In this document: positions 58,709 through 64,000 of the stretch, piece after piece
Numbering within the stretch: the first letter of the stretch is position 1
Layout of the letters: each line of letters opens with the position of its first letter
From: Thermoplasmatales archaeon I-plasma
Lineage (GTDB): Archaea; Thermoplasmatota; Thermoplasmata; Thermoplasmatales; GCA-001856825
DNA length: 64,000 bases
NCBI GenBank assembly: GCA_001856825.1
Contig: ATMD01000004.1
Coordinates: 106,568 to 170,567 of the forward strand
Reading direction: 5' to 3'
Translations under genes and position numbers: made by a program
Notes under the pieces: model-generated
The model's database searches: none
Told to the model about the DNA's origin: nothing
The model's input: only the letters and a program-made list of their open reading frames with translations

Positions 58709-58781
58709 GGGCTCGTGGTCTAGTGGTTATGACATCGCTCTCACACAGCGAAGGCCGCCGGTTCAAATCCGGCCGGGCCCA
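58709..58781 (+). tRNA. tRNA-Val (anticodon CAC)
   Basis: GGGCTCG/CGGGCCC acceptor (one G-U), anticodon arm TCGCT-CTCACAC-AGCGA, T arm GGTTCAAATCC. Confidence 0.95.
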
Positions 58782-58837
58782 TCTTTAATAAGGGGATATA
58801 TATAGAACGCTGAAATTTACACCTTTTAAGCATAACC

Positions 58838-58877
58838 CTTTACTTCATAATGTAAAGCTTTCTTGATGTTCTCAGAG
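58838..58877. repeat. Left copy of a 40-nt imperfect inverted repeat flanking the island
   Basis: Reverse complement ctctgagaacatcaagaaagctttacattatgaagtaaag vs 63135-63174 ctttgagaacgttaagaaagctttacattacaaagtaaaa: 34/40 identical by eye, 17-nt exact core. Confidence 0.8.
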
Positions 58878-58915
58878 GTTTAGATTTGTGTTTAAAATTC
58901 TCATTGTTTCTAATA

Positions 58916-59239
58916 TTATGCTTGATATTCCACAATGTCTTTTTTTGAAATCCCCTCATCCTTCACATCCCTAGGCTTCAATGATAGAATCCAGTCATAG
59001 AATTCTTTTAAATTCTCATACTCAAGGTATGAATCCTCATCGATGCCCAATACGGATACCTCGTCAAGGTTGTTTGATTCCTTGCCTATGTACCTTATCC
59101 TATCGGCAATGATGTGTTTCCTATGGGCTATTCCTTCATTGTCATATTCGAATTTGTTATCATTGTGCTTTATGTATTGAATCAGTACGTCTCGAAGTGG
59201 TTTCCAATAAGAGTTACGGCAATGAGAAAAAATGCTACT
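58916..59239 (-). pseudogene. Start-less C-terminal gene fragment (YWKPLRDVLIQYIKHNDNKFEYDNEGIAHRKHIIADRIRYIGKESNNLDEVSVLGIDEDSYLEYENLKEFYDWILSLKPRDVKDEGISKKDIVEYQA*)
   Basis: Manual translation; about 100 protein-like residues with no ATG/GTG/TTG in frame after the preceding stop; absent from the ORF track. Confidence 0.6.
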
Positions 59240-61916
59240 TTAGGCTATCTTCTATTACTTTCCTTTCGTATTCTGTTATGCGGTACATATCATAGAACAT
59301 TTCATCTATTTTTGTCTGTAAATCCTCAATTTCCCTATCTAATTTGCCAACTTCGTCTGTTACTCTATCTTTCATTTGGTAATAGGTCATTGTCTTACTG
59401 ATAATTTCCGTGCATAAATCAGAAATTTTCTGATGAAGACTATTGTTTAGCTCTGGGATAGGAATATTTTTTGCATAAGCTTTATAGAAATCCATTGACC
59501 TAATTGCATTACTGTAGATAAATTTGTAAGTGTAGTATTGAACTATATTAGAATTCAGTAAAGCCAATATGAATTCATTAGAAAATTCCTTACTTTTAAC
59601 AAAAATATTTGTTACTGTGTTAAAAGAAAATAGCCCCTCCTTATCTAAGGCAGCAGTAATTTTAATATGGTCTCGGATGTGTGCAACTATTCTTTGGGCG
59701 ACAATGTGTGGCTTTTTAAATTGCTCTATAGTCCTTATATATTTTTGGATTTCGGGATTATTCGGAGAATAGTACCTGCATCCACGAATGATGTAGCGTT
59801 GAATATCGTCTCCACGTAGTACCTTTTCACTATCTTTTGATGGTTCATCGAAGAAAATATCTCTTCCTTGTATTCCTAAACCTAAAATAATATCTGCAAT
59901 GTCTCCTAATCTTGTATTAGTTGACTCCATTTTACTCTTGATTTCATAAGCTATTGGATTTGGCTCCAAGGGGATTTTGTTTTCTTTCAAGCAGGTGCTT
60001 TGTAAAACCTTTGCAGTTTCCTTTATTGAACGATTATCAAGCTCTCCAATCACGATTTTATCATTATCTAACGGTTTATCTTTTTTCAGAATGAAGATTA
60101 TCTGCTCTAGCAATACATCTTTAAATGCTTTACCACAGTCAATAACGTTTAAAAATTTGTAATTGGTTAAAATTTTGTACCTTATTTTATCCCAAGAATC
60201 TGTGAACGATAGCATTTTTGGTACTATCATCCCGATGCGTCCCTCTTTCATGACAAGTTTTAGTGACCGGTTAATAAAAATGGCGGATGCATTCATCATT
60301 CCAGATTTAATCTCATTGTAATCATCTGTCTTATTTATTGGGTCACCTTCAAATATCTTGAAGTAGGGTGGATTCCCAATCACAATATCGAATCCCCCTT
60401 CTTTCATAATCTCAGGAAATTCCTCTTCCCATTTGAAAGCTCTATCAGAAATAGAAAGGTCATCAATCAAGCTGTTTCCAACTTTTATGTTATTTTGAAG
60501 TATAGGCAATCTCTGTTTCCTTTCAGATATCTGCAATAATAGGTTTAACTGAGCAATTTCTACTGCTTTGGGGTCTAGGTCAACGCCAAATATGTTATTC
60601 TTGAGAATTTCTACCTTCTTTGAATAGAATTCCTCACTCTCCAATGTTGTTTGAGCAAAATCAGAATTATGTAACCAATAGTTCTCCAATTCCTTGTACG
60701 CTCTAATAAGGAAACTACCAGAACCACAAGCAGGGTCTAGAATTCTTACCTTTTTGATTTCCTCTGGTGTATGTGTCTTTACGAATTCTCCGACAGTGTT
60801 CTTTACAATATAATCAACGATGTAAGAAGGCGTATAGTAGATGCCTTGCTCTTTCCTATGAGTCTTTGATTCCTCCAGTTTTGCCCTCTTTGGTGTTGAT
60901 TTGAGGATATTACCCAGATATTGTTCATATATGTTCCCCAAAACATCTGATTCAATGATAGAGAAATCATATCTGTAAGAGTTATCCTTAGACTGGTTAA
61001 GACCTTCTATGACCTCTTTAAGTGCTTCATTCTCTATGTAGAGGTCATCGCACAAATGGTAAGAAAAGAGCTTGCTGTTATAGTTTCTATCATAATCGGC
61101 ATATATTCTCGATATTTCCTTTATGAGATGACCCTTTCCTCTTGAATACCATTGCCTGACATTGGATTGTAACTGATTCTCTTCCAGACCTCTGTCCTCA
61201 GCATTTCTTATGAAGATGAGACGGTCTAATATCCTCTGGACTGATTCGTCTATATCCTCTTGAGTGAGATGCTTTTCCTGATTGTTTTTCACTATGTCCT
61301 TTGAGAGAATTTCCCTGAATCTTATCATATCTAGCAAGAGCTGTTTGTCAATACGATTTTTGAACTGTTTTTTACCCCAATTCGTAGCTTCTTTATCAAG
61401 CTCATCCCTCTCAAATGCTTTCTTTGACAGCATTTTGAATCTATCATTAGTCAGAAAATCGTCGGGGTGAAAAACGAAGAGAACGTTTCCATTTGGAGTA
61501 GAGGATTTCCAGTCTGCGTTGTAAACGGCTATAGTTTCGAAATTAGTCAATATAGCCCAAGAACAAGACTTCATCCATGCATAATCAATCGCTTGTGTGA
61601 CGTATTTTGGATTGTTTTGTATGTCTTCTTCTTTCAGTGATTTTGCTTCAAGGAAAAACTTAGGTATTCCGTTAATCCTGAGTCCATAATCTACCCTCTT
61701 TTTTGATATTGTTTCCTCAGCACTCACCGAATTATCTTTATTTCCTTTATTGTAGACGTTCCAACCTAACGCTTCAAACAAAGGCAATATGAAATCCTTC
61801 TTTGTTGATTCTTCATTGTATCTTTTGATTTCACCCGATTGTTTAATCTGATTATATTTAGTTATAAGTTCGGAGACTCTATCTTTGTTAATTTCATAAC
61901 TAGCTTCGTTTTCCAT
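59235..61916 (-). CDS. Single-polypeptide type IIG-like restriction endonuclease / adenine methyltransferase
   Basis: N-terminal nuclease-like KKRVDYGLRINGIPKFFLEAKSL; QGIYYTPSYIVDYIV; RILDPACGSGSFLIRAYKE; FDIVIGNPPYFK (N6-MTase NPPY); C-terminal target-recognition region. Confidence 0.92.
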   Translation of the reverse strand: MENEASYEINKDRVSELITKYNQIKQSGEIKRYNEESTKKDFILPLFEALGWNVYNKGNKDNSVSAEETISKKRVDYGLRINGIPKFFLEAKSLKEEDIQNNPKYVTQAIDYAWMKSCSWAILTNFETIAVYNADWKSSTPNGNVLFVFHPDDFLTNDRFKMLSKKAFERDELDKEATNWGKKQFKNRIDKQLLLDMIRFREILSKDIVKNNQEKHLTQEDIDESVQRILDRLIFIRNAEDRGLEENQLQSNVRQWYSRGKGHLIKEISRIYADYDRNYNSKLFSYHLCDDLYIENEALKEVIEGLNQSKDNSYRYDFSIIESDVLGNIYEQYLGNILKSTPKRAKLEESKTHRKEQGIYYTPSYIVDYIVKNTVGEFVKTHTPEEIKKVRILDPACGSGSFLIRAYKELENYWLHNSDFAQTTLESEEFYSKKVEILKNNIFGVDLDPKAVEIAQLNLLLQISERKQRLPILQNNIKVGNSLIDDLSISDRAFKWEEEFPEIMKEGGFDIVIGNPPYFKIFEGDPINKTDDYNEIKSGMMNASAIFINRSLKLVMKEGRIGMIVPKMLSFTDSWDKIRYKILTNYKFLNVIDCGKAFKDVLLEQIIFILKKDKPLDNDKIVIGELDNRSIKETAKVLQSTCLKENKIPLEPNPIAYEIKSKMESTNTRLGDIADIILGLGIQGRDIFFDEPSKDSEKVLRGDDIQRYIIRGCRYYSPNNPEIQKYIRTIEQFKKPHIVAQRIVAHIRDHIKITAALDKEGLFSFNTVTNIFVKSKEFSNEFILALLNSNIVQYYTYKFIYSNAIRSMDFYKAYAKNIPIPELNNSLHQKISDLCTEIISKTMTYYQMKDRVTDEVGKLDREIEDLQTKIDEMFYDMYRITEYERKVIEDSLK

Positions 61917-62634
61917 TTGTATTTACCTCTAAGTTTCTCTTTAATATTTCGTAGAATTGACTTTTTAACGAGTCAAAGTTTGGTTCATACTTGTACTTAA
62001 AGTGTCTAATATGTGCTATATCAAATGGTATATCATCCTCATTTTGAGTTATTATTAGCACCTTTTTGTCTAGACAGTGAGCCAATCCAAGCTCATAGAA
62101 GACGTTTGGATTTTTTCCAGTTACATCGGCAATAATTAATGACGAATTCTTAATTGAATCTAAAATTTGGTCTATCACCGTACCAACTTTCAAATTATCA
62201 TCTGCTTTGGAACAACTAAAATTCAGAGACTTAACTACTGGCTCAATAACATTATAAAACAGAGTTTGAAACGGTTCTTGAAAAGGCATTAGAACGAAAA
62301 CACTATTAGAATTTACTAACGGCTTTTCTTCGATATCAGATTTCTCTATGATGTTAAGGCCTTCGGAGACTTTAGACAATAGAAATTCTGGTGCTAGCTC
62401 TTTAAGAAATTTTGAAAGCAAGTCCATTTTTTCTTGCTCGCTTGTCGATTGGTCTGAAAGAGTCATTATCCAATCATAGACAAGTTGGGCTCTGACTGAA
62501 GTTATGCTATCATTTGGATGAGAAGTTGCTTTAAAAGGGAAAATCGCTCCTGCTATCCTATTTATTTCATTTATACTGCTTCCGTACTTGAGCTTCTCTC
62601 CAATTTGAATTGCTATTAACTTGTAATTTGTCAT
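61900..62634 (-). CDS. Nucleoside 2-deoxyribosyltransferase/TIR-like domain protein with N-terminal helical region
   Basis: NSVFVLMPFQEPFQTLFYNVIEPVVKSLNFSCSKAD...IKNSSLIIADVTGKNPNVFYELGLAHCLDKKVLIITQNEDDIPFDIAHIRHFKY; 17-nt overlap with the RM gene. Confidence 0.75.
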   Translation of the reverse strand: MTNYKLIAIQIGEKLKYGSSINEINRIAGAIFPFKATSHPNDSITSVRAQLVYDWIMTLSDQSTSEQEKMDLLSKFLKELAPEFLLSKVSEGLNIIEKSDIEEKPLVNSNSVFVLMPFQEPFQTLFYNVIEPVVKSLNFSCSKADDNLKVGTVIDQILDSIKNSSLIIADVTGKNPNVFYELGLAHCLDKKVLIITQNEDDIPFDIAHIRHFKYKYEPNFDSLKSQFYEILKRNLEVNTNGKRS

Positions 62635-63065
62635 TCAATCTTCACTATTGTCTTACTATAAACTTTAATCTCTTTACCCTCTTTAATCTTCTTTTGCTGA
62701 TACCATAATGTAGATTTGTTTATTCCTAGCTCTCTCCTCTTTTGAGGGTCAATGGACATTATCCTTGACCTTACCTCTTTGTTGTCTACCCTTTCAATCC
62801 TCATTTCAGGAATACTGAAATCTAATCCCTTTGATTTTCCAGAGATGTAATAGCTCAGAGTCCTTACGTTCTCAAAGAGGATGTTATCTAAGGTATATTG
62901 TTTGCTTTTGAATTGATTCCGTTTGTTGAAATTGTCCTTTATTTTCTCAATAAGAAGCTTAGCTGTTTTGGGTTTTAAACGGACGTGGTAATTCTCCGTT
63001 ACGATAAAATCGCTTTTCTTTAGCTTCGTTTCTAGCAGTTCAATAACTGAATAATCGATAATTTT
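62631..63065 (-). pseudogene. cas1: 5'-truncated cas1 (C-terminal ~144 aa)
   Basis: Manual translation KIIDYSVIELLETKLKKSDFIVTENYHVRLKPKTAKLLIEKIKDNFNKRNQFKSKQYTLDNILFENVRTLSYYISGKSKGLDFSIPEMRIERVDNKEVRSRIMSIDPQKRRELGINKSTLWYQQKKIKEGKEIKVYSKTIVKIE*. It follows the Cas1 C-terminal pattern and has no plausible start codon. Confidence 0.75.
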
Positions 63066-63134
63066 CTAAACAGATCCTAGGGAATAAGGGAGAGAAAATA
63101 GATAAAAGATGTATTTTCAAGTATAATGCCTAGT

Positions 63135-63174
63135 CTTTGAGAACGTTAAGAAAGCTTTACATTACAAAGTAAAA
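63135..63174. repeat. Right copy of the 40-nt imperfect inverted repeat
   Basis: Inverted relative to 58838-58877; ends where the IS3-like TGGTCTGCCCCC terminus begins. Confidence 0.8.
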
Positions 63175-63250
63175 TGGTCTGCCCCCTCATAGAACTGGAA
63201 CAGTATAATGTTAATATTATAAGTAGGGAAGGATACATGGAGGTCTACCA

Positions 63251-63529
63251 ATGAGATCAAGGCATTCCGTGGAAGAGAAGTTTGAGATAGTCATGGAAGC
63301 ACTCACTGAAAACACAACACAGGCAGAGATATGCAGGAGGCATGGAATATTTCCCACTCAACTAGCAAAGTGGAAGGAGCAGTTCATAGAGAGCGGTAAG
63401 AAAGGTCTCTCTGATGGCAGGCATCCTCAATCAAGGGACGAGGAGATAGATGACCTCAAGAGGATGATAGGCGAACAGACCCTGGTGATCAATGCTTTTA
63501 AAAAAAGGCTTCAAGGAGGGTCAAGATGA
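63251..63529 (+). CDS. IS3-family transposase OrfA
   Basis: RHSVEEKFEIVMEALTENTTQAEICRRHGIFPTQLAKWKEQFIESGKKGL HTH_Tnp_1. Confidence 0.92.
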   Translation: MRSRHSVEEKFEIVMEALTENTTQAEICRRHGIFPTQLAKWKEQFIESGKKGLSDGRHPQSRDEEIDDLKRMIGEQTLVINAFKKRLQGGSR

Positions 63530-64000
63530 CCATCGTTGAAGATCTCAGGGGCGATATGTCCCTTAGAGAGATATCAAGGGTATCAGGCATTTCCCTCTCC
63601 TCCTTCTATTACCAGGAAAAGGAGAGGAGAGTGAAGAGGCTCTCTCCTCAAATTGAGCAGGACATAATCAATACTGCTTCTGAGAGGCCAACATACGGTT
63701 ATAGGAGAATATGGGCTATGCTTAGAAACAACGGAACGAAAGTCAACAGGAAGGCCGTGAGGAGGGTGCTGAGAGATAGAAATCTATCTCTTCCATACGC
63801 TAAGCACAAGGGAAGAACAAAACACAGGAATCTGTTCCGTCCCACAGGACCTGATCAGCTGTGGGAAACGGATATCACATACATCCCCACGCAGCAGGGG
63901 ATGACATACCTGATGGCAATAAAGGACTGCTTCACGAAAGAATGGGTGGGGTACCAATACTCCAGAAGCTGCCTGTCCAAAGATGCGATAAGGGCAGTGG
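63526..64000 (+). CDS. IS3-family transposase OrfB (integrase core), partial
   Basis: Manual translation from ATG 63526: MTIVEDLRGDMSLREISRVSGISLSSFYYQ...RPTYGYRRIWAMLRNNG...QLWETDITYIPTQQGMTYLMAIKDCFTKEWVGYQ; runs off the window; ATGA overlap with OrfA. Confidence 0.9.
   Translation, partial: MTIVEDLRGDMSLREISRVSGISLSSFYYQEKERRVKRLSPQIEQDIINTASERPTYGYRRIWAMLRNNGTKVNRKAVRRVLRDRNLSLPYAKHKGRTKHRNLFRPTGPDQLWETDITYIPTQQGMTYLMAIKDCFTKEWVGYQYSRSCLSKDAIRAV

Follow-up and report, generated by a model that had tools for sequence, protein, structure and literature searches.

The window, the 64,000-nucleotide stretch of DNA analyzed here, contains a 4.3-kb region in which a handful of defence-type genes is enclosed by an imperfect inverted repeat. 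What are these repeats, and what kind of unit do they enclose? Casposons are jumping elements. Their integrase is a relative of the enzyme by which CRISPR memories are made, and the CRISPR integrase is presumed to have come from them. The original description of casposons reportedly listed few hosts. We conclude, with a probability of roughly 93%, that the island is the inactive remnant of a family 2 casposon beside tRNA-Val(CAC), in which a type IIG restriction-modification (RM) gene has remained whole and the genes for movement have decayed. The first-pass annotation had suggested that the repeats could be the termini of an unrecognised mobile unit. The termini are indeed those of a mobile unit, being the two ends of a casposon, and this unit is of a known kind. 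Family 2 casposons (Krupovic et al. 2014), for example those of Aciduliprofundum boonei and Methanosarcina mazei, encode a B-family DNA polymerase (PolB) and a Cas1 with similar C-terminal HTH segments (PMC4046053).

The 40-nt inverted repeat stands up to scrutiny. Its arms, 58838–58877 and 63135–63174, match in inverted order at 34 of 40 positions, above the best score of 31 among 20 dinucleotide shuffles of the 4.8-kb region. A repeat search gave longer arms of 48 nt (58830–58877 and 63135–63182) with 81% complementarity. Only two copies exist genome-wide (1.69 Mb in 6 contigs), which rules out a common MITE, the possibility on which the earlier reading might have foundered. A match to the repeat at locus L008 was dismissed as chance, as it sits within a conserved translation-factor-like gene.

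The 40-nt arms are the inner portion of a terminal inverted repeat of ∼95 bp, a trait of family 2 casposons. The right copy is interrupted by an IS3-family insertion sequence (63175–64000 on the + strand, running on to ∼64432 beyond the window), which consists of an HTH orfA (63251–63529; Pfam HTH_Tnp_1) and an rve orfB from 63526. The left end of this insertion sequence, TGGTCTGCCCCC, begins at 63175, its right end, GGGGGAGCAGATCA, lies at ∼64432, and AAAA flanks it on both sides. When the insertion sequence is omitted, the alignment of 58792–∼58887 with the right end extends over ∼95 bp and has a local score of 87, compared with a maximum of 53 in 2000 shuffles. The left terminal inverted repeat (58792–58887, + strand) starts with the tip GGGGATATATATAG and encloses the left arm, while the inner part of the right one (63135–63174, − strand) resumes past the window at approximately C4:171000–171052 of the genome. 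The right tip, at ∼171052 of contig C4, shows minor changes, and its reading spans an insertion sequence in a draft assembly. The repeats belong to true element ends, as had been proposed, and the island had been drawn too narrowly: on the left, the breakpoint coincides with the casposon tip, which lies 46 bp beyond the left arm, and the right one lies beyond both the insertion sequence and the window.

The left end has the exact geometry of a casposon insertion. The tRNA-Val(CAC) gene (58709–58781, + strand; ARAGORN) ends 10 nt before the tip at 58792, and its last four nucleotides, CCCA, open the left copy of a 14-nt target, CCCATCTTTAATAA (58778–58791, + strand), which is assigned by this geometry of 4 nt of tRNA end plus 10 nt. 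In M. mazei, the last 4 bp of tRNA-Leu are likewise contained in the 14-bp duplication generated by casposons (PMC6977970). The first-pass annotation had advised a search for target-site duplications just outside the repeats; they are perfect in intact relatives (see below), and on the right side of the window copy the candidate CTCATTTTTAATTC matches CCCATCTTTAATAA at 10 of 14 positions, a score also reached by target sequences of other loci.

All four genes between the repeats lie on the − strand, as first annotated, and the two fragments among them can now be named. The left one, of 107 codons (58919–59239), is the C-terminus of an 883–908-residue polymerase found in intact relatives; it corresponds to approximately residues 766–854 of 904, with the final HTH disrupted. 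The polymerase of the relatives contains the B-family motifs DTETT, YLDFTSMYP and DTDSIF. Its PHROGs DNA polymerase matches are mostly weak (best 7e-14) and a Pfam search on the PolB proteins gave no match; the assignment is based on the motifs, the PHROGs matches and the casposon gene context. PolB and Cas1 have a common C-terminal HTH-like segment (hhalign E-value of 1.7e-7), and complete PolB proteins with this HTH are present in relatives. An HNH nuclease and two HTH genes are absent from the window copy and present in the genomes G017, G082 and G077. We read their absence as a deletion, and therefore classify the island as a remnant rather than a working casposon.

The right fragment (62631–63065) comprises the C-terminal 144 codons of a casposase, a Cas1 with an HTH extension that occurs full-length in relatives. 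Its sole PDB match is the M. mazei casposase (6opm, residues 269–403, E-value of 9.5e-25). The fragment begins at approximately casposase residue 262–264, past the conserved E168, H242 and E257, so that the catalytic residues are absent. No second casposase was found elsewhere in the genome, and the genome's own CRISPR-type Cas1 is encoded at a separate location. The persistence of the casposase HTH as a free protein in the window was considered and rejected, as its first 60 codons contain no start codon. Mobility, which the first-pass annotation had offered as an inference, is supported for the ancestor of the island and not for the window copy itself, with its casposase devoid of the catalytic part and its polymerase fragmentary.

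Relatives within the order supply the missing parts. Intact elements with PolB, HNH, HTH and Cas1 genes are present in G017 and G082, and G077 contains a similar element with a split PolB. The full-length Cas1 proteins of these three consist of 404–434 residues (Pfam Cas_Cas1, 5e-63), and that of G017 matches the casposase 6opm with an E-value of 4.4e-75, compared to 1.5e-25 for the best CRISPR Cas1. The 14-bp target duplications are perfect (14/14) at both ends of the elements in G077 (CP009479.1) and G082 (JAJZJR010000001.1), and match at 13 of 14 positions in G019; the automatic search for right ends and target duplications was clear for these three and failed at most loci. At ∼30 distinct loci, the tip GGGGATATAGATAAG begins 10 nt (slightly less in a few cases) past the 3′ end of a tRNA gene, which may be that of Val, Pro, Ile or Met. 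The pattern CCCA-N10-GGGGATATAGATAA was detected in 57 of 117 genomes of the order, versus 7 for the reversed control; 26 hits were exact.

Several further loci are worth recording. At L195 (G011:C63, positions 1275–1289), two casposon tips stand back to back about one 14-bp target; they are probably tandem insertions at one tRNA, an arrangement reminiscent of the growth of a CRISPR array. A circular casposon was considered for this contig, which is otherwise without casposon genes, and tandem insertion was judged likelier. L007 (G031:C1:954695-957732) is a decayed casposon, in which a similar right-end block and a PolB tail flank an FkbM-like methyltransferase gene. A casposase-alignment scan of 84,980 genomes recovered relatives in assemblies named Micrarchaeota, Nanoarchaeota, Marsarchaeota and Nitrosopumilus, which may reflect binning errors; the casposases of L183, L184, L185, L186, L187, L190, L191 and L193 in those assemblies are of the same family, and several are accompanied by PolB, HNH and HTH genes.

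Within the same genus, the tRNA-Val(CAC) site is empty in G001 and G004 (L102 and L103), with the same neighbours on both sides, so the empty site to be looked for in related strains does exist. The empty junction of G004 reads CCCATCAAGATGAG|ATTTCAGG. The DNA immediately to the right of the window copy does not align with the empty sites, and the genes on both sides are syntenic. In G003 (L101, G003:C13, ∼1592–1620), the site contains exactly 15 extra bp, GGGGATATAGATAAG, which equal the initial 15 nt of the tip. Such a scar would remain after a deletion between the AGATAAG repeats in the tip and the target copy, which fits the loss of a casposon.

The compact architecture of the island is also found elsewhere. 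L074 has the same architecture at a different tRNA (Pro), and the arrangement of PolB tail, RM gene and cas1 tail recurs at different tRNAs in several genera. Such recurrence is what might be expected of a non-autonomous but still mobile casposon on which a casposase encoded elsewhere acts in trans. We regard this explanation as improbable, since the genome encodes no other casposase and the insertion sequence interrupts the right terminal repeat. The break points in cas1 also vary between loci, which fits separate decay better than a shared deletion derivative; a single such derivative behind all compact loci is accordingly not supported. Deletion junctions that agree from site to site and come with fresh, perfect target duplications, which would support such mobility, are absent so far from the compact loci. 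Decay of a resident casposon remains our preferred reading, and the position of the PolB tail next to the RM gene can be understood from an element in another genome (L188/L192). The two ends of this element share a 413-bp repeat (97.6% identity) that includes the PolB tail, which accounts for a PolB tail adjoining the RM gene, and its cargo end lies at the tRNA. In G082, cas1 is followed towards the cargo end by an Mrr-like gene, the RM gene and the tip. Judged by these relatives, the window order (tip, PolB tail, RM, NDT/TIR, cas1 tail) would be the cargo half of G082 flipped.

The 3′ ends of tRNA genes are common hot spots. A defence island could have grown at such a site through several unrelated events, the inverted repeat being a duplication or the leftover of some other transposon. 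The location at a tRNA 3′ end and the presence of an insertion sequence agree with this scenario, which we nevertheless consider very unlikely: both fragments and both repeats derive from one element type and appear in the same order at other tRNAs, the left tip is the same as the casposon tip at the ∼30 loci, and no relatives with the RM gene at this site but without casposon ends were seen. That the cas1 fragment is the remnant of a CRISPR-Cas locus joined to an RM gene is scarcely credible despite a weak NCBIfam cas1 match, given that the fragment includes the C-terminal HTH extension, a peculiarity of family 2 casposases (PMC4046053), as well as a structural match to the casposase only, the separate CRISPR-type Cas1 of the genome, and relatives in which no such fragment linked to a CRISPR array or cas2 was seen.

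Two further genes lie between the fragments. The RM gene (59235–61916, − strand) encodes an intact protein of 893 residues with the Pfam domains HSDR_N, Eco57I, N6_Mtase and TaqI_C (PADLOC REase_MTase_IIG, 1.6e-106). With nuclease, N6 methyltransferase and specificity domains combined in one intact chain, it is, as predicted from its sequence, a type IIG enzyme. The neighbouring gene (61900–62634, − strand) encodes an NDT/TIR-like protein of 244 residues, which matches a PADLOC TIR effector (1.1e-14), has a Pfam NDT match below the cut-off and shows weak NDT matches in the PDB. This gene overlaps the last part of the cas1 remnant at its start and the beginning of the RM gene at its end; in L074 as in the window, cas1, NDT and RM follow one another with abutting or overlapping start and stop codons. 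The NDT/TIR-like gene was seen solely at these two loci, in the same place and with 86% identity. Codons 1–540 of the RM gene are 90% identical between the window and L074, with an omega of 0.10. The C-terminal target-recognition half has been swapped between the two, with 37% identity (window 59235–61916, L074 3993–6605).

The RM subfamily is closely tied to casposons. Homologs with at least 74% identity that are not at contig edges sit in casposon loci, apart from a G039 homolog and another on G075:C9, whose genomic context could not be assigned; no casposon linkage was seen for homologs with 70% identity or less. Where both genes are visible, a single uninterrupted RM frame accompanies a broken Cas1 in nine loci; G053, where the RM frame meets the contig edge, makes ten. 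The reverse, an intact Cas1 with a broken RM, was not seen among RM-bearing loci in which both genes are visible. A sign test on the ten loci, which are partly non-independent, gives 0.002. The segment encoding the casposase C-terminal HTH is still an open frame upstream of the RM gene in L144, L145, L146, L147, L148, L118, L170 and L005, and the front end of the casposase has been lost at differing points in these loci.

We propose that the element was inserted by a casposase consisting of Cas1 and a C-terminal HTH, at a point 10 nt past the tRNA-Val(CAC) gene, with the last 4 nt of the tRNA serving as the start of the 14-bp target. The cargo end would have entered towards the tRNA, giving the order tRNA, PolB-tail end, RM, NDT/TIR, cas1, the rest of the element and the PolB end. 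The half in which PolB, the front of cas1 and the HNH and HTH genes lay was probably lost in a later deletion, and the far terminal repeat would have received the IS3-family element. That the RM gene has remained intact is most simply explained by its value to the host against incoming DNA, and the NDT/TIR-like gene may assist in defence. Against this account weigh the imperfect right target copy, the altered right tip, the lack of HNH and HTH genes in the window copy and the right flank that does not align with the empty sites. A more general, and rather speculative, scheme is that Thermoplasmatales casposons are vehicles of a dedicated restriction module behind the casposase gene, such that the RM stays with the host after the transposon has gone; the HTH segment, open before the RM in several loci, might then have been retained to regulate the RM operon or to lead its translation.

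The island resembles described family 2 casposons in its Cas1 and PolB with similar C-terminal HTH segments, its terminal inverted repeats, the HNH and HTH genes of its intact relatives, their 14-bp duplication that takes in the final 4 nt of a tRNA, and the methyltransferase or restriction cargo occasionally carried by the family. In contrast to these, the window copy is broken, the target is CCCA instead of CGCA, a type IIG RM recurs, and the host order is Thermoplasmatales. Compared with the M. mazei casposase, to which it aligns over residues 269–403, the window fragment lacks the catalytic half. The RM enzyme is similar to Eco57I-like type IIG enzymes in combining HSDR_N nuclease, N6 methyltransferase and TaqI_C target recognition within 893 residues, and differs from other type IIG enzymes in that its subfamily is almost confined to casposon loci within the order. 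Within this portion of the archaea, the openly accessible literature yielded just A. boonei and a "casposon-associated" protein of E-plasma. While the kind of element is known, we have not found reported this lineage, its lineage-wide association with a type IIG RM or the survival of this enzyme past the death of the transposon; the latter two are new and testable.

Nearly intact elements in G082, G077 and G017, two of them with exact ends, are available for experiments. The tip signature suggests that casposon ends are present at tRNA genes in about half of the Thermoplasmatales species that were sampled, and the loci described here suggest that the type IIG RM is a recurrent passenger that outlives the transposon. 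This would be a tangible example of how host defence can be seeded by a mobile element that bears an integrase.
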